Source of the DNA: Litorihabitans aurantiacus
Lineage (GTDB): Bacteria > Actinomycetota > Actinomycetes > Actinomycetales > Beutenbergiaceae
Length of the DNA: 64,000 nucleotides
Assembly: GCF_030161595.1 (NCBI RefSeq)
Contig: NZ_BSUM01000001.1
Location: 2,356,001 to 2,420,000 of the forward strand
Reading direction: 5' to 3'
The notes beneath the pieces were generated by a model. It searched no databases, was not told the DNA's origin, and saw only the letters and a list, made by a program, of their open reading frames with translations. The translations under genes were made by a program, and so were the position numbers. Position 1 is the stretch's first letter, and every line of letters starts with the position of its first letter. Below are positions 14,308 through 24,786 of the stretch, one piece after another.

Positions 14308-14369
14308 CCACGGGGGCGATGCGGCGCGGCCGAGTTGGTGGCACCCGCGAATCGGGGGACACTCCCCTC

Positions 14370-15598
14370 GTGATCGCCCACGCCCGCCGCGCGCTGCTCC
14401 CGGCCGGGGCGCTGCTCCTCCTGCTCGCCACGGCGTGCACCCCACCCGGTCCGAGCGGGTCGCCGACCCCGGATCCCGCCGCCCCGCCGACGAGCACGAG
14501 CGCGCCCACGATGACGACCGACTCCCCCACCGACGACTCCGGCCACTCCGGTCCCTCGACCTCGTCCCCCTCCACGGCGTCGTCTGGCGGTGACGGTGGC
14601 GCCGTCGACGCGGCACAGCGGGCGGGCCGCGCCTTCCTCGCCGACTACGTCGACCCCGACGGCCGCGTCGTGCGGCGCGACCAGGGTGGCGACACGGTCA
14701 GCGAGGGCCAGGCGTACGCCATGCTCGTCGCCGTCGCACTCGAGGACCGGGCGACCTTCGACCTCGTGTGGGGGTGGGCGCGGGCGAACCTGCAGCGGCC
14801 GGACGGACTCCTGTCCTGGCGCTGGGCCGACGGCGCCGTCGCCGATCCGCAACCGGCCTCCGACGCCGACCTCGACGCCGCCCGCGCGCTGGTCCTTGCA
14901 GGAGAGGCGTTCGGCGACCCCACCCTGACCGAGTCGGCGACCGCGCTGGGTCGCGCCGTGCTCGACCGCCAGACCGTGGTCACCGACGCCGGGCGCATCC
15001 TGCTCGCCGGGCCGTGGGCGGCCAGCGCCCCGTACCAGGTGAACCCCAGCTACTCGACGCCGGTCGCGACGCAGCTGCTGGCGGAGCTCGACGGCGACCC
15101 GCGCTGGGCAGAGCTCGACGCCGGGTCGCGCGGGGTGGTCGCCGCGCTCACCGGCGGTGGCGCGCTCCCGCCCAACTGGGCGCTGGTCGACGTCGCCGGC
15201 ACCCCGAGCCCGTCGCCCGGACCCGACGGGAGGCCGATCAGCTTCGGGTACGACGCCGCCCGGACGCTCACGCGCCACGCCGAGTCGTGCGCGGCGAGCG
15301 ATCGCGACGTCGTCGCCCCCGCCCTGATCACGCTCCCGACCGGCACCGTGCTGCACGCCGAGCTCGACCTCGACGGCGACGCCGTCACCACCGACCAGCA
15401 CCCCGTCACCCACGTCTCCCGGGCGGCCGTCCGGGCGCTCGCGGGGACGAGCAGGGCGCGCTCGCCGACCTCCGCAGCGCCGATGCTCTGCTGGCCCGCT
15501 ACCCCACCTACTACGGCTCGGCCTGGGCGGCGCTCGGACGTCTCTCGCTGCAGACGGACCTGCTGGGCGGCTGCCCGCCGCTGGGAAGCAACCGCTAG
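14370..15598 (+). CDS. Glycoside hydrolase family 8 lipoprotein (frame broken near 15445)
   Basis: After repair 409 aa. The signal peptide ends in lipobox LLATAC, followed by a Ser/Thr/Pro linker to about residue 80. The GH8 (alpha/alpha)6 catalytic domain contains the proton-donor Glu112 in DTVSEGQAYAM and the Asp295 in FGYDAART matching GH8 catalytic positions. Family 8 enzymes hydrolyse beta-1,4 glucans, chitosan, xylan or lichenan; BcsZ of cellulose operons belongs here. The break at the G4 run 15443-15446 is repaired by one G, giving ALAGDEQGALADLRSAD and an end at LLGGCPPLGSNR. It is paralogous to the N-terminal half of the protein at 20898. GTG start chosen at the signal peptide. Confidence 0.87.
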
Positions 15599-15673
15599 CC
15601 CCGCATCCCGTCGGCGTGTGGCGCAGGCCACAAGGTGACGCGAGCGCGAAGATGACGCCCTCGTGATCGGAAT

Positions 15674-15791: not shown

Positions 15792-16283
15792 GTGACTACA
15801 CCTGAGCCGCGCCACCCACGCCGCCTCACGCTGCCGCCGCGCCTGCTCGAGATCGTCCGGTTCGCGGGGGTCGGCGGCCTCGCCTTCGTCGTCGACGTCG
15901 GCACGTACAACCTCCTGCGCGTGACGGTGCTCGAGGACAAGCCGATCGGCGCCAAGGTCATCTCGGTCGCCGTCGCCATGGTCGTCGCCTGGCTGGGCAA
16001 CCGCTACTGGACCTTCGCCGGCCGCCGCCGCGCCTCTGCGCCGGGCGAGCTGATCGCGTTCGTCGTCGCCAACCTCCTCGGTCTCCTGATCGCCGCCGCG
16101 TGCCTCGTCGTGTCGCACTACGTCCTCGGCTTCACCTCGCAGCTCGCGGACAACATCGCGGGCAACGGGGTCGGCCTCGTGCTCGGCACGCTCTTCCGCT
16201 ACGTCGTCTACCGGCGGTTCGTGTTCAACTCCGAGCCGCGGGAGGCGGGGCCGGCGCGGCCGCCGCACCCCGGCCGCGGTTGA
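15792..16283 (+). CDS. GtrA family membrane protein
   Basis: 163 aa from a GTG. It has four transmembrane helices and the GtrA/DPMS hallmark regions: EIVRFAGVGGLAFVVDVG at helix 1, KVISVAVAMVVAWLGNRYWTF between helices 2 and 3, and a final FRYVVYRRFVF. GtrA-like proteins are thought to help move polyprenyl-phosphate sugars across the membrane or to partner polyprenol-phosphate glycosyltransferases. It opens the run of glycan genes, 80 bp ahead of the GT2 gene, and its natural partner may be the polyprenol-phosphate sugar synthase at 22682. Confidence 0.88.
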   Translation: MTTPEPRHPRRLTLPPRLLEIVRFAGVGGLAFVVDVGTYNLLRVTVLEDKPIGAKVISVAVAMVVAWLGNRYWTFAGRRRASAPGELIAFVVANLLGLLIAAACLVVSHYVLGFTSQLADNIAGNGVGLVLGTLFRYVVYRRFVFNSEPREAGPARPPHPGRG

Positions 16284-16363: not shown

Positions 16364-17913
16364 GTGTTCGCGATCCTCGCCCAGGGCGATGCGCCCGTCC
16401 TCACACCGATCGACCCCGCTCCGATCCCCACGCCCGTCCCCGTCGGCCCCAACCGCGGGCCCGCCGACGTCGGGGTCGCCACCGATCTCGCCGGGTTCTG
16501 GGACCGCACGTCGCCCCTCGCCCTGGTGGGCTACGGAGTCCTGATCCTCGTCGCGCTCGCCCTCACGGCGATCGCCCTCACCACCCTGTGGTGGATGCTG
16601 CACGCCTGGCGCAGCAGCGCGGCTCTCACGGCCACGGGCTTCCGCACCGCCACCGCGCGGCAGCGGACCACGACCCACTCCTTCACGCTGATGGTCCCCG
16701 CCCGGCACGAGGAGGAGGTGCTCGCCCACACGCTCGAACGGCTCGTGGAGCAGAGCCACCCCGACGTCGAGATCATCGCGATCGTCGGTCACGACGACCC
16801 GGGCACGGAGGCCGTGGCCCGCTCGGTCGAGGAGCGCTTCCCCGAGCGCGTGCGCGTCCTCGTGGACGACTCGGTCCCGAAGAACAAGCCGAAGGCCTTG
16901 AACCTGGCGCTGCAGACGGCGCGCGGGGAGATCGTGGGCGTCTTCGACGCCGAGGACGAGGTCCACCCCGACCTCCTGCGCCTCGTGGACGAGCGGTTCG
17001 CCACCACCGGCGCCGACGTCGTCCAGGGCGGCGTGCAGCTGATGAATATCGAGACCTCGTGGTGGTCGCTGCGCAACGTGCTCGAGTACTACTTCTGGTT
17101 CCGGTCGCGGCTGCACTTCCACGCCGAGCAGCGCTTCATCCCGCTCGGCGGCAACACGGTCTTCCTGCGCACGCAGCAGGTGCGCGACGCCGGCGGCTGG
17201 GACGCCGAGTGCCTCGCCGAGGACTGCGAGATCGGGGTGCGCCTGTCCAGCCAGGGGGCCCGCGTCGTCGTCGCCTACGACCCCGACGTCGTCACCCGCG
17301 AGGAGACGCCGGGCACGCTGAAGTCCTCTACAAGCAGCGCACCCGTTGGAGCCAGGGATTCCTCCAGGTGCTGAAGAAGGGCGAGTGGCGCAAGCTGCCC
17401 GGGCGCGGCCAGCGCCTCATGGCCCGTTACATGCTCTCGATGCCGTTCCTCCAGGCCGGCACGGGTCTGCTGATCCCGATCTCGATCGCGCTCATCCTGT
17501 TCGCCAAGGTGCCCACACCCGTCGCGCTCATCTCGTTCCTCCCGATCGTGCCGACCATCGTGATCGTCTGCATCGAGGTGGCCGGACTCGGCGAGTTCGG
17601 GCGCGTGTACGACAAGAAGATCCGCGTGCGCGACTACCTGCGCCTCGTGCTGGGCACCTTCCCGTACCAGGTCTTCCTCGCCATGGCCGCGGTGCGCGCC
17701 GTCGCCCGCGAGGTCCGCGGCGAGCGGGGCTGGGAGAAGACCGAGCACTCGGGCGCCCACATCGACCGCGTCGAGCCCGAGACCACCGTCACGGGCATCG
17801 AGGTCGAGACCTCCCGCCCCGCCCCCGCGCTGTCGCTCGCGGGCGCCGGCGCCACCGCCGGGCCGGGCGAGCCCGCCGACCAGACCACCTCCACCGCTGC
17901 GGACAGGACCTGA
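16364..17913 (+). CDS. Processive-type family 2 glycosyltransferase (frame broken near 17320)
   Basis: After repair 516 aa. One N-terminal membrane helix (about 48-75) precedes a GT-A catalytic domain: MVPARHEEE, NKPKALNLAL, the metal-binding DAEDE (DxD type), the acceptor EDCEIG, and QRTRW (the QxxRW motif of processive beta-glycan synthases). Three or so C-terminal helices follow (about 360-450). It probably extends a beta-linked polysaccharide at the inner membrane face and feeds it outwards. The frame breaks between EETPGTL and VLYKQRTRW at 17318-17322; one added base restores it. GTG start with GGAAGGA upstream. The product could be cellulose-like, but PilZ and BcsB partners are absent. 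Confidence 0.85.
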
Positions 17914-17914
17914 C

Positions 17915-19939
17915 ATGGCCCTCGTGATCGAGCGCGAGCACCCCACCGACGAGCCCACCACCACCGAGCTCGACCTCGGCTCACCCCCGAGGGTGCGCAC
18001 ACCGACGAGACCCCGCGGGGCGGCGGCCGCTGGCGCAGCCGGCTGCTCGACGCCCTCTGGCTCGGCCCGCTGCTCACGGTCGCGGGCCTCGTCAACGGCA
18101 TCGGGCTCTTCCGCGTGCCGCAGTTCATCGACGACGAGGGCACCTACAGCGCCCAGGCCTACGCCGTCGAGCGCCTCGGTGAGCTGACCCACTACACCTA
18201 CTGGTACGACCACCCGCCGCTCGGCTGGCTGCAGATGGCGGGGTGGACGAGCCTGACGAACGCGTTCGACCGCTACCCCTCCGCTGTGATGGCCGGCCGC
18301 GAGACGATGATGGTCGCCCTCGCCGCCTCGACCCTGCTGCTGTGGGTGCTCGTGCGGCGGATCGGCGCCCCCGCGTCGTCGCCGCCGCGGCCGTCCTGCT
18401 GTTCACGGTCAGCCCGCTCGCGGTGCAGTTCCACCGCACGGTCTACCTGGACAACATCGCGGTGCCGTGGATCCTGCTGGCGTTCGTGCTGGCCACGGTG
18501 AAGCACCGCCAGCTCGCCGCCTTCCTGGGAGCCGCGGCGGCCGCCGGCGTCGCGGTGCTGACCAAGGAGACGTTCCTCCTCATGGTGCCGTTCGTCGCCT
18601 GGGTGATGATCCGGGGTGCGGCACCCTCGACCCGCCGGTACACGCTGACCGCCGCGGGCGCCGTCCTCAGCCTCATCGGCATCGGCTACATCCTGTTCGC
18701 CCTGCTCAAGGGTGAACTGACGCCCGGCGCCGACCGCGTGAGCCTCTGGGACGGCATCGCCTTCCAGCTCCTGGACCGCGACGCCAGCGGATCGCTCACC
18801 GACCCCGACAGCCTGGTGCGCGCGACGACCGACGTGTGGGTCGACCTCGACCCGGTGCTGCTGGTCGCCAGCGCCGTCGCGATGCTCGTGGGGCTGTTCC
18901 TGCGCCGCACCCGCCCGTACGCCGCGGCCCTGCTGCTCCTGGTCGTGATGATCGTGCGCCCCGGCGGCTACGTGCCCGTGCCGCACATGATCGGGATGCT
19001 CCCGCTGATGGCGCTGCTCGTGCCGGTCGTGGTGTGGGCGGGCGTGCGCACGGTGCGCCGCTCGCGCAGCGAGGCGGTGCGCCGCGGCGCGATCCTGCTG
19101 CCGACGGCGGCGCTGGCCCTGACCGGTGTCGTCCTGGCGGTCCCGCAGTGGACCAGTCAGCTGCGCGGCCAGCTGATCCCCGACTTCAACGCACCGTTCA
19201 CCCAGGCGCAGGACTGGATCGAGACGAACGTCCCGACCGACTACCGCCTCCTCGTGGACGACGTCATGTGGGTCGACCTCGTCGAGGCGGGGTTCCCGCG
19301 CGAGAACGTCGTCTGGTACTACAAGGCCGATACCGACATGGAGGTCATCGCCCAGTCGCCGAACGGGTGGCTGGACCACGACTACGTCGTCACGACCGAC
19401 TCGATGCGCACGTTCCCCTCGAGCTTCCCGCGGGTGCGGGAGGCGATCGACAACTCGACCGTCGTGGCCACGTTCGGCGAGGGCGACCGCGCCGTCGAGA
19501 TCCGCCGTGTCCGCTCCGGCGGGATCGCGGCGGCCGACGCTTCCGACGGCGCCGCTGCCAGCCAGCGTGCCAACCTCGGCGCGCAGCTCGCCGTCAACCC
19601 GAACGTCACGTTCGACGGCGTGGCACCGACGTCGGCCGACTCGCCCCCGGGGCCGTGACGGCCGTGACCGAGGGTCGGCTGGACGACCGGCTCGCGCTCG
19701 TGCTGGCCCAGCTGGGGTCGACCGCCCCCGTGACCGTGGAGCTGCCCACGATCGACGGCGAGGAGGACCTCGTGCTGCGCTCGGCCCTGGTGACCGAGCG
19801 CGACGGCGAGCCGCTGAGCGAGGCCGACGCCGCGGACGTCGTGACGTTCTTCGAGCAGCAGAACCCCTCGTTCCAGCCGCTGAGCGCGGAGGTCACCCCC
19901 GACGGCGTGCTCGTCACCTACCCGCTGGCCGCGCCGTGA
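17915..19939 (+). CDS. GT-C membrane glycosyltransferase, family 39/ArnT-like (three frame breaks)
   Basis: After repair 675 aa with about ten membrane helices. It uses a polyprenol-phosphate sugar to modify a glycan or protein outside the membrane. The first extracytoplasmic loop carries QFIDDEGTYSAQAY and WYDHPPLGWLQ, the acidic pair typical of PMT/ArnT enzymes. After the last helix there is a soluble domain (DWIETNVPTDYRLLVDD; VTTDSMR), then a C-terminal domain (AVTEGRLDDRLALVLAQL) often seen in such actinobacterial proteins. Breaks are at the C5 runs 17984-17988, 18368-18372 and 19644-19648; a sixth C repairs each. The ATG lies 1 bp after the preceding stop. Confidence 0.83.
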
Positions 19940-20031
19940 CCGGGCGCGTCCGCGACCCTCGACCCCACCACCCGCCCGACCACTCCCCCGACACCACCAG
20001 CCACGTGCCCGAGACGACAGACGGAGCTCCG

Positions 20032-20901
20032 ATGACCACGACCACCACCGCCCGCCGCACCCGCACCCTCGCCGCGACGGCCGCCGCCGCCGGCCTCGTC
20101 ATGATCGGGGCGGCCGTCCCGGCCGCCGCCGCACCGGCCGCGCCGGCACCCTCCGACAGCGACGGCTGGGTCCGCCTCGGGCACTTCTCGCCCGACACCC
20201 CCGCCGTCGACGCCCGCCTCACCTCCGTGGCCGGAACCACCGACCTGACGTTCGAGGACGTCACGTACGGCGAGGTCTCCGGCTACACCCGCCTCGCCGC
20301 GGGCACCTACACGGTCGCGATGATCCCCGCCGGCGCCCCCGAGGGCACCGCCCCGGCGATCACGCAGAGCTTCGACGTCGTGCCCGGCGGCGCGGCCACC
20401 GTCGCGGCCGTCGGCCTGAACGCCGACCTCTCCGGCCGCGTCATCGCCGACGACCTCACCCCGGCCCCGGACGGGCAGGCGCGCGTCCGGCTCATCCAGG
20501 CGTCCGTGTCCTCGCCCGAGGTCGACGTCACCACCGACACGGGTGCGCCGATCGCGCGCGACGCCGCGTTCGGCACCGCCACCGACTACGCGCAGGTCGA
20601 CGCGGGTCGCTGGACCCTGGACGTCGACGGCACCCAGAGCGGCACCGTCCAGGTGGACCTCCCGGGCGGCAGCGTGAACACCCTCGTCGTGCTCGACAAC
20701 GGCGACCAGATCTCGCTCACCGCCCTCCAGGACGCCGCAGGGACGGCCCAGGCGCCCGTCGGTGGTGTCGCGACGGGCGAGGGCGGGCTCGTGCTCGAGG
20801 CGGACCGCCGCACCGGCGTCGTGCTCGCCGTCGTCGCCGGCGCGCTCGGCGCGGCCCTGCTGGGCCGGCTCGCCGTGCGTCGCCGCGCGGAGGCCGCATG
20901 A
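20032..20901 (+). CDS. DUF4397 surface protein
   Basis: 289 aa, frame intact. A Sec signal peptide (1-35, AAAGLVMIGAAVPAAAA) precedes two DUF4397 repeats, the first opening with the typical RLGHFSPDTPAVD. The tail is a Gly-rich motif (VGGVATGEGG), a membrane helix (about 263-281) and a short Arg-rich end. The tail has the shape of a cell-wall sorting signal but has no LPXTG. Its stop overlaps the start of the GH8-sortase gene by 4 bp, so the two are translationally coupled. DUF4397 proteins are extracellular beta-rich modules without a known activity. It may be the substrate of the sortase next door. Confidence 0.85.
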   Translation: MTTTTTARRTRTLAATAAAAGLVMIGAAVPAAAAPAAPAPSDSDGWVRLGHFSPDTPAVDARLTSVAGTTDLTFEDVTYGEVSGYTRLAAGTYTVAMIPAGAPEGTAPAITQSFDVVPGGAATVAAVGLNADLSGRVIADDLTPAPDGQARVRLIQASVSSPEVDVTTDTGAPIARDAAFGTATDYAQVDAGRWTLDVDGTQSGTVQVDLPGGSVNTLVVLDNGDQISLTALQDAAGTAQAPVGGVATGEGGLVLEADRRTGVVLAVVAGALGAALLGRLAVRRRAEAA

Positions 20902-22609
20902 CGGCCCGCTCGGGGCGCGTCCTCGTCGCCGCGGCCGCCACGGCCGGTCTCGTCCTGACGCTCGGGGCGTGCTCCCCGCAGGAGGGCCCGACGCCGTCGC
21001 CCGAGACCGGGACGCAGGACGCCTCTGCGCCCGACACCCAGGCGCGCACGCCCCAGCAGGCCGGCGAGGCCTTCCTGGACGACTACGTCGACCCCGACGG
21101 TCGGGTCGTGCGGCGCGACCAGGGCGATGACACGGTCAGCGAGGCGCAGGCCTACGGGATGCTCGTCGCGGTCGGGGTGGACGACGCCGAGCGCTTCGCC
21201 TCGATCTGGGAGTGGACGCAGGAGAACCTCCAGCGCCCCGACGGCCTGCTGTCGTGGCAGTGGGACGACGGCGAGGTGACCGACGACCAGCCGGCCGCCG
21301 ACGCCGACCTCGACGCGGCCCGCGCCCTCGCCCTGGCGGCCGAGCGGTTCGACGAGCCCGGCTACGCCACCGACGCCCAGGACCTGGGAGCGGCCGTCCT
21401 CGACCTCGAGACCGCGCCGACCGCCCTCGGGCTCGTCCTGCTCGCAGGACCGTGGGCGGATGTGGACCCGTACCAGATCAACCCCAGCTACCCCACCCCG
21501 GTGGCCACGCGCCTGCTCGCCGAGCTGGACGGCGACCCGCGCTGGGCCGAGCTCGACGCCGGCAACCGCGCCGTGACCCGGGCACTCACGGAGGGGGCAC
21601 GCTCCCGCCGAACTGGGCGCAGGTCCACGGGGGCGACGGCCGGGTCGAGCCGATGCCCGGCCCCGACGGGCGCGACGTCGTCTTCGGCTACGACGCCGCC
21701 CGCACCCTGGTGCGCTTCGCGGAGTCGTGCGACGTCGAGGACCGCGACGCCGTCACCCCGACGATCGGCCTGCTCGAGCAGTCCGACACCCTGGCCGCCG
21801 AGCTGGACCTCGGCGGCGCGCCCCGCACGGAGGACTCCCACCCGCTGACCTACGTCTCGCGCGCCGCGGTCCGGGCGCTCGACGGCGACCTGCCGGGCGC
21901 GCGTGCCGACCTGCGGGCGGCCGACGCCGTGCTCGAGGAGAGCCCGACGTACTTCGGCTCGGCGTGGGCGGCCCTGGGCCGGCTGTCGCTCGAGACGGAC
22001 CTGCTGGGTGGCTGCCCGCTGGTCACCGACGACGCGGCCGACGCGGGCGAGGCGGCGTCGACGTCGGCCGACGGCTCCGTGCCCGGCGCGTCGTCCATCC
22101 CCGGCACGCTCACGCTGCAGCCCCGGGTCGACGGCGCGGCCACCGGCCCCCAGCCGATCCCGGCCGCCGAGGTGGTCCCGACCCAGGTGCGCATCCCGGA
22201 GATCGGGGTCACCTCCGGCCTCGAGAACCTGGTGCGCAACTCCGAGCGCGTGCTGCAGGACCCGGCCGTGCCCGAGGTGGCCGGCTGGTACTCCGAGGGG
22301 ACCGTCCCCGGCCAGGTCGGCCCCTCGATCATCGCCGGTCACGTCGACTCGGGCGTGGCCGGCGCGATCTTCCGCGACCTGGACCAGCTGACCCCGGGGT
22401 CGGAGGTGCTCGTGGACCTGTCCGACGGGACCACCGCGACCTTCCGGGTCAGCCACACCCAGGTCGTCCCGCAGGCGCAGTTCCCGACCGACGTCGTCTA
22501 CGGCCCCGTGCCCGACGCGCAGCTGCGCCTCATCACCTGCCACGGCTTCGACCGCGACCAGCGACGCTACGTGGAGAACCTCGTCGTGTTCGCGACGCTC
22601 GTGACCTGA
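20898..22609 (+). CDS. Lipoprotein fusion: GH8 glycoside hydrolase plus class E/F-type sortase (frame broken near 21595)
   Basis: After repair 570 aa. Signal peptide with lipobox LTLGAC. GH8 domain about 45-375 with catalytic Glu82 (DTVSEAQAYGM) and Asp266 (FGYDAART). An Ala/Ser/Pro linker of about 60 residues leads to a sortase domain (about 430-570) with His482 in AGHVDS, catalytic Cys548 in LITCHGFD and Arg557 in RRYVENLV. No membrane helix or start precedes the sortase, so it relies on the GH8 lipid anchor. The break at the G5 run 21593-21597 lies inside the GH8 part, so the fusion itself is in one continuous frame. It overlaps the DUF4397 gene by ATGA. Confidence 0.85.
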
Positions 22610-22681: not shown

Positions 22682-23477
22682 ATGCCCACCCCCGATCACC
22701 GATCCAGCGCCCCCTCGTGGTCGTGCCAACCTACGACGAGATCGAGAACCTGCCGGTGATGCTCGAGCGGCTGCACGCCGCGGCGCCGCAGGCCCACGTC
22801 CTCGTGGTCGACGACGGCTCGCCCGACGGCACCGGCACGCTGGCGCAGGAGCGCGCCGACGCCACCGACTGGGTGCACGTGCTGCACCGCACCGAGAAGG
22901 CCGGACTCGGCGCCGCCTACCTCGCCGGGTTCGCGTGGGCGCTCGCGCGCGACTACGACGCCGTCATGGAGATGGACGCCGACCTGTCCCACCACCCCGA
23001 GGACGTGCCGCGGCTCCTCGCGGCGCTCGCGGACGCCGACGTCGTGCTCGGCTCGCGGTGGGTGCCGGGCGGCGGGGTCGAGAACTGGCCGCTGCACCGC
23101 CGGATCCTCTCGCGCGGTGGCTCGTTCGTGGCGCGCCTCGCTCTCGAGATGCCGCTGCGCGACGCGACCGGGGGTTCCGCGCCTACCGCCGCCACGCGAT
23201 GGAGCGCCTCGACCTGCCGACCATCGCGTCGCAGGGGTATGTATTCCAGATCGAGCTCGCCCACCGTGCGCTCGAGGCCGGCCTCGAGGTGGTCGAGGTG
23301 CCGATCACGTTCACCGAGCGTGTCAACGGCGTGAGCAAGATGACCGGAGGCATCGTGCGCGAGTCGCTCGTCCGGCTGACCTGGTGGGGGCTCGAGCGCC
23401 GCCTGTCCCGCCTCGCCCGGATAGCCCGACGGCGTGGCGACGCCGGTCTCGTGCGCAACGGGGACGCCCGGTCCTGA
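22682..23477 (+). CDS. Polyprenol monophosphate sugar synthase, DPM1-like GT2 (two frame breaks)
   Basis: After repair 265 aa. The dolichol-phosphate-mannose-synthase fold is clear: LVVVPTYDEIENL, LVVDDGSPDGTG, the metal-binding MEMDADLSHHPED, LGSRWVPGG and DATGGFRAYRR, ending in TERVNGVSKMTGGIV and WWGLERR. It makes a polyprenyl-phosphate-linked sugar on the cytoplasmic face, the donor for GT-C enzymes such as the one at 17915. Breaks are at the C5 run 22689-22693 (just after the ATG) and the G5 run 23170-23174; a sixth base repairs each. If the first is not an error, translation would start at GTG 22717. Confidence 0.87.
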
Positions 23478-24115: not shown

Positions 24116-24786
24116 ATGACCAGCACCACCCGCACGACCCGCACCACCCGTAGGATCGCGGCCGCCGCCCTCCTGGGATCCCTCACCCTGACCGCGTGCA
24201 GCGGCGACGGGGACCCCGGTGGGATGGAGGGGATGGACCACGGGGACGACCGGTCCTCCACGGCCACCCCGACCGAGGACCGGGCCGGCGATCACAACGA
24301 TGCCGACGTGATGTTCGCGCAGATGATGATCCCGCACCACGAGCAGGCCGTGGAGATGTCCGACATCGTGCTGGCCGACCCGAGCGTGATGCCCGAGGTC
24401 TCCGACCTCGCGCAGCAGATCAAGGACGCCCAGGCCCCCGAGATCGAGACCATGTCCGCCTGGCTCGCCGACTGGGGGCCGAGCCCGCCGACGGCGGGAT
24501 GGACCACGGCGGCATGGATCACGGCGGGATGGGCGCCGACAGCGGCATGCTGAGCGAGGAGGAGCTGGGCGCGCTGGCGGACGCCACCGGCGCGGACGCC
24601 GACCGGCTCTTCCTCGAGGGGATGATCGCGCACCACGAGGGCGCCGTCGCCATGGCCCAGGACGAGGTCGACGGCGGACGCGACGCCGACGCGATCGCCC
24701 TCGCGCAGGAGATCATCACGGCGCAGGAGGAGGAGATCACGACGATGAACGACCTCCTGGCGACGCTCGACCCCGCCCGCAGCTGA
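24116..24786 (+). CDS. DUF305 lipoprotein, metal-binding (frame broken near 24476)
   Basis: After repair 223 aa. The signal peptide has lipobox LTAC. The first four-helix DUF305 half has FAQMMIPHHEQAVEM and the second FLEGMIAHHEGAVAMAQ, joined by a Met/His repeat (GGMDHGGMDHGGM). The HH pairs and Met-rich segment are the conserved features of this ferritin-like family, which occurs near copper genes and is thought to bind copper outside the membrane. The break at the G5 run 24474-24478 is repaired by a sixth G. It probably forms a transcription unit with the His/Cys-rich protein 110 bp upstream. Confidence 0.87.

Follow-up and report, generated by a model that had tools for sequence, protein, structure and literature searches.

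A gene in the window (the whole stretch of 64,000 nucleotides analyzed here; the genes and domains of the cluster described below lie on its + strand) joins a glycoside hydrolase of family 8 (GH8) to a sortase within one polypeptide chain. The fusion of the two genes is real. It combines known families in a domain architecture that is new, within an operon that is conserved; a description of it was not found in the literature. The GH8-sortase fusion gene (20898..22609) begins with a lipoprotein signal peptide, whose lipobox LTLGAC (20955..20972) was read from the sequence. The GH8 domain follows (21051..22015, from PF01270 and alignment to GH8 structures), then a weakly constrained linker (22016..22186), the last part of which reads GPQPIP, and finally a class F-like sortase domain (22187..22606, from PF04203, NF033748 and conservation). 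The gene has one frame break, near 21589. From 21596 to 22609, a stop-free frame covers what remains of GH8 and then the linker and sortase. The genome holding the window (G000) measures 3.85 Mb.

An open frame in a GC-rich genome is weak evidence by itself. The evidence for the fusion is conservation and selection, not the open frame alone. The arrangement recurs in a second species of the genus (G001), where GH8 through the whole sortase is 75% identical and free of stop codons, and the single-frame translation of the G001 gene, 546 residues long, carries both GH8 and sortase above the Pfam cut-offs. The GH8 model PF01270 (cut-off 24) scored 89.5 bits against ORF P0001 of the window (20898-21596, E 2.7e-25) and 113.9 bits against the G001 fusion. 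For the sortase model PF04203 (cut-off 26.6) the values were 79.9 bits against ORF P0002 (21596-22606, E 1.8e-22) and 82.4 bits against the G001 fusion. In the comparison of the window with G001, dN/dS was 0.30 and 0.19 in the two pieces of GH8 and 0.19 in the sortase; purifying selection acts on both domains. The linker, with a dN/dS of 0.84, is not under such selection. The initial annotation, which had proposed a GH8-sortase fusion, is thus supported by domain scores over the cut-offs, by a frame that stays open across the junction and by the same pair of domains in G001.

Five genes of the cluster are broken in the window, at about 15443, 17326, 18369, 21589 and 23172. The break in the fusion gene is a one-base gap relative to G001 at about 21589; it lies inside GH8 and hence upstream of the junction, as had been stated earlier. 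One-base gaps relative to G001 were likewise found at 17326 (GT2), 18369 (GT39) and 23172 (DPM-type GT2), and these three genes are single open frames in G001. With five genes of one cluster broken, three of which have unbroken counterparts in G001, the break near 21589 is probably a sequencing error. The G001 gene is itself broken at the signal peptide, at about L039:9877, in both G001 contigs; the main caveat is therefore that neither of the two assemblies carries the gene in a single unbroken frame. Across the junction itself, both the window and G001 are intact. One of these contigs (L042, G001:C1) is 10 kb long and carries a 98% identical copy of the operon region with many gaps. It is probably a duplicate contig of the G001 assembly.

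It could be argued that the two genes are separate and that an error of sequencing makes them look joined at the junction, as the window assembly contains errors of the indel type and the genes are separate in other genomes. However, the same junction is open in G001, which is 75% identical overall and whose linker aligns with that of the window at 57%. A signal peptide, a lipobox and a helix were sought in all frames of the linker, and none was found. Moreover, the window and G001 have no in-frame linker start in common: a GTG in the window linker is absent from the G001 linker, and the GTG common to both species is the first residue of the sortase domain, which would yield a sortase without signal or anchor. 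We consider such a joining error highly improbable; a junction artefact was rejected on the basis of the open G001 junction, the linker frames, the dN/dS values and the two-domain reading of G001. Decay of the gene, with the breaks in both species being real mutations, deserves slightly more weight and is still unlikely. Each species does have its own break, at about 21589 in the window and, in both contigs of G001, at the signal peptide. Against decay, five cluster genes are broken in the window, and the GT2, GT39 and DPM genes among them are unbroken in G001; the duplicate contig of G001, 98% identical, has 174 gaps over 8.9 kb, as is typical of an erroneous assembly; and dN/dS is low in both domains. 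For a run of breaks within one operon, assembly error fits better than decay.

In the GH8 half, Glu82 is part of SEAQAYGM (21138-21161) and Asp266 of GYDAAR (21686-21703). By alignment to solved GH8 enzymes, these motifs correspond to SEGQGYGM and SYDAIR of solved GH8 endoglucanases; for the Asp motif, the correspondence was read on the orthologue of a third species of the genus (G002). The family assignment by sequence, the catalytic Glu and Asp and the position beside a processive-type GT2 gene are shared with the BcsZ/GH8 endoglucanases (PF01270). Unlike BcsZ, the fusion is a lipoprotein with a C-terminal sortase. The GH8 scored 105 to 123 bits with the BcsZ model NF008305, under its cut-off of 299, and the operon GT2 is not BcsA by model, with 33.6 bits against the cut-off of 699 for the cellulose synthase model TIGR03030. 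Since both GT2 and GH8 fall below the Bcs models, cellulose should not be assumed as the product. A stand-alone GH8 lipoprotein paralogue (14319..15638, frame break near 15443) lies 5 kb upstream and is 75% identical to the fused gene in DNA over the GH8 part. This stand-alone copy is absent from G001, where no GH8 other than the fused one was found, the duplicate-contig copy of the locus aside. The fused GH8 would therefore be the only one there.

Among the NCBIfam sortase classes, class F (NF033748) scored best by far, with 151.8 bits in the window, 148 bits in G001 and 140 bits in a stand-alone sortase of another genome (G086), all three under the cut-off of 166. His482, in GHVDS (22337-22351), and Cys548, in LRLITC (22523-22540), were assigned by conservation and are invariant in an alignment of 49 related sortases. 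These two residues, like the Glu and Asp of GH8, were found where the initial annotation had placed them. Its third proposed sortase residue, Arg557, is not conserved among the 49 sortases, and its role as a conserved catalytic residue is not supported. Conserved instead are R544, four residues before the Cys (47 of 49), and Asn561 (48 of 49), which occupies the place assigned here to the canonical sortase Arg. In the class F-like group, the Arg after the Cys thus seems to be swapped for Asn, with a conserved Arg preceding the Cys (window 22523-22588). A PDB profile search with 32 sortases gave only a weak class D-like match, and P0002 modeled from its sequence alone reached a mean pLDDT of only 41.

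An N-terminal anchor of their own is a feature of class F sortases; neither helix nor lipobox lies between GH8 and sortase here. Hence the suggestion that this sortase lacks both an anchor and a conserved start of its own agrees with the linker frames and with the comparison of window and G001. The membrane anchor available to the fused sortase is the GH8 lipobox. LTLGAC at 20955-20972 bears out the lipoprotein anchor previously placed at the GH8 end, and the fusion protein, which carries a signal peptide of the lipoprotein type, is predicted to be lipidated. It had further been held that such sortases normally stand alone with an N-terminal helix. Separate sortases do exist, but several of them have a lipobox of their own instead of the helix.

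The fusion gene is preceded by a gene encoding a DUF4397 protein, a putative sortase substrate (20032..20901), whose stop codon overlaps the start of the fusion (ATGA). In the C-terminal tail of this protein we found a putative sorting motif, PVGGVATGEGG (20755..20787), with a membrane helix and RRR after it (20812-20898). LPXTG was sought in this DUF4397 neighbor only and is absent, with PVGGVATGEGG in its place. In a strict form (P.GG[VAM].TG), the motif occurs in 31 of 39 distinct DUF4397 tails as compared to 13 of 4976 control tails from other open frames; the DUF4397 set was mostly gathered via sortase or DUF4397 relatives, its members are related, and the 31 of 39 are therefore not independent events. 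Nearly all DUF4397 proteins with the strict motif lie beside a class F-like sortase. A C-terminal PxGG[VA]xTGxGG is common to the DUF4397 proteins that adjoin class F-like sortases in the window, L040, L047-L055, L067-L068, L076-L091 and others, and may be regarded as a candidate non-LPXTG sorting motif. The motif is kept and the helix after it is missing in G114, G264, G665 and the f19 pairs without GH8 (G179, G273). At L054, L055, L068, L076 and L077, the DUF4397 tail has the motif and neither membrane helix nor basic tail.

Around the fusion, the window encodes a GtrA-like membrane protein (15792..16283), a processive-type GT2 synthase (16364..17913, frame break near 17326), a GT39/PMT_2-like glycosyltransferase (18115..19940, frame break near 18369) and a DPM-type GT2 (22717..23477, frame break near 23172). 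In six other genomes from four families and two orders, GH8 and sortase are encoded side by side by two separate genes of one operon. Four of these genomes belong to the order of the window (G293, G309, G114, G264) and two to another order of the class (G470, G665). The gene order in the six is GT2 synthase, GT39, DUF4397, GH8 and sortase, mostly flanked by GtrA and DPM-type GT2 genes, and the sortase has its own lipobox in five of the six operons. As GH8 and sortase are operon neighbors elsewhere, the fusion joins neighboring genes. The pair is thus not absent from relatives, being fused in G001 and adjacent in the six others, and the link to DUF4397 that had been suggested is supported by operons in which DUF4397, GH8 and sortase are adjacent. 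DUF4397-sortase pairs without GH8 were found in G086, f38, f47 and others, and GT2-GT39-GH8 sets without sortase in G498 and G608.

In the sortase tree, the two fused sortases group with the stand-alone sortase of G086 (100/99), the gene of which also follows a DUF4397 gene, and the DUF4397 tree gives the same grouping (94/88). In the GH8 tree, the stand-alone copy of the window falls with the stand-alone GH8 of G002 (98/96), apart from the fused copies. At this place, G002 is without the fused gene and without the GT2, GT39 and DUF4397 genes. Trees and gene content would be explained by a duplication of GH8 in the genus, with one copy joined to the sortase. GPQPIP at the end of the linker is common to the fusion and the stand-alone G086 sortase; we infer that the two genes were joined within the variable part that precedes it.

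To estimate how common the fusion is, GH8-bearing genomes were pooled over samples of the family, order, class and phylum, giving 54 different genomes. In the family, 3 of 24 genomes have GH8, and all three belong to the genus of the window; the order, class and phylum samples gave 27 of 396, 25 of 395 and 7 of 396 genomes, respectively. GH8 and sortase shared one frame in 2 of the 54 sampled actinobacterial genomes, only G000 and G001, both of the same small genus. One GH8 (G161) lies at a contig end, and the six phylum loci span 1.5 kb on either side. Among plasmid records, only stand-alone sortases were found, and no record covers 80% of the query. A literature search for GH8 or another hydrolase fused to a sortase did not find a natural protein of this kind. 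If active, the fusion would be, as far as our searches went, the first enzyme with glycoside hydrolase and sortase in one chain.

The fused sortase resembles the class F sortases of actinobacteria (NF033748; SrtF of Propionibacterium acnes, SrtF1-4 of Actinoplanes missouriensis), its best-scoring class, with which it shares the invariant His and Cys. SrtF1 and SrtF4 are likewise reported to adjoin a signal-peptide protein with membrane helix and basic tail (PMC13251363). In contrast to class F, the domain described here is fused to GH8, has no anchor of its own, scores 151.8 where the cut-off is 166, and has a neighbor with PVGGVATG rather than LPXTG. In that report, the role of class F sortases is given as unknown, and the neighbors of two of them, which look like substrates, were set aside because they lacked a pentapeptide sorting motif (PMC13251363). 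It also describes SrtE of A. missouriensis (792 aa, sortase at 575-775), in which a sortase domain similarly ends a long protein; SrtE differs in being class E, and a glycoside hydrolase domain is not mentioned in the passages on it (PMC13251363). Another parallel is the CslA-GlxA-CslZ system of Streptomyces, where the gene of a lipoprotein glycan hydrolase, CslZ, lies next to that of the GT2 glycan synthase CslA, and glycan deposition needs CslZ (PMC9040799). Unlike the fused GH8, CslZ is a GH6 and has no sortase domain. The fusion points to a likely target of class F sortases: together with the conserved operon and the DUF4397 tail motif, it provides candidates for the substrate, the motif and the pathway, the last being surface glycan synthesis.

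Fusion of operon neighbors points to a shared job of GH8 and sortase. With moderate confidence, and arguing from sequence and gene context, we favor a lipid-anchored two-domain enzyme in which GH8 would trim the glycan of the operon and the sortase would process the DUF4397 protein at PxGG[VA]xTG. Held by its lipid anchor, the fusion protein would face outward from the membrane. By analogy with CslZ beside CslA in Streptomyces, the GH8 half may cut or trim the polymer of the GT2 synthase, and the sortase half may cleave the DUF4397 protein at PVGGVATG and join it to an acceptor in the envelope. In favor of this reading, DUF4397 adjoins the sortase also where GH8 is absent. Counting against it are the DUF4397 tails that keep the motif but lose the helix, the GT2 and GH8 scores under the Bcs cut-offs, the sortase Arg that is missing from its expected place, and the frame break in each assembly. 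Fusion would keep both enzymes co-located and in equal amounts, with a sortase that needs no anchor of its own.

A less probable, still conceivable reading accepts the fusion as real and holds that only the sortase half matters, GH8 serving as anchor or spacer while the paralogue (14319-15638) does the cutting. A second GH8 lipoprotein is indeed present 5 kb upstream in the window, and the fusion provides the anchor that sortases of this group require when they stand alone. Nevertheless, the fused GH8 retains its catalytic residues, is under purifying selection and would be the sole GH8 in G001. The acceptors of known sortases are amines of lipid II or of pilins. This bears on the coupled action that the initial annotation had proposed, in which GH8 would free a glycan end and the sortase would join the DUF4397 protein to the same glycan. 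Both genes are adjacent in one operon in other lineages and form one chain here. However, sortase acceptors are amines, nothing here shows an amine-bearing glycan acceptor, and DUF4397-sortase pairs exist without GH8, and we find coupled action very unlikely. The related idea of a protein-glycan ligation machine, where GH8 would open a surface glycan and the same complex would join a glycosylated DUF4397 protein to it via a non-LPXTG motif, is equally unlikely.

Two further observations were made. A small, putatively DUF305-like lipoprotein gene (24116-24786) also seems to switch frame near 24500. In one genus of family f8 (L047-L051), a different cluster combines DUF4397 and sortase genes with a GT2 and a more distant GH8 that are a few kb away, and it may represent a second link between the two functions.
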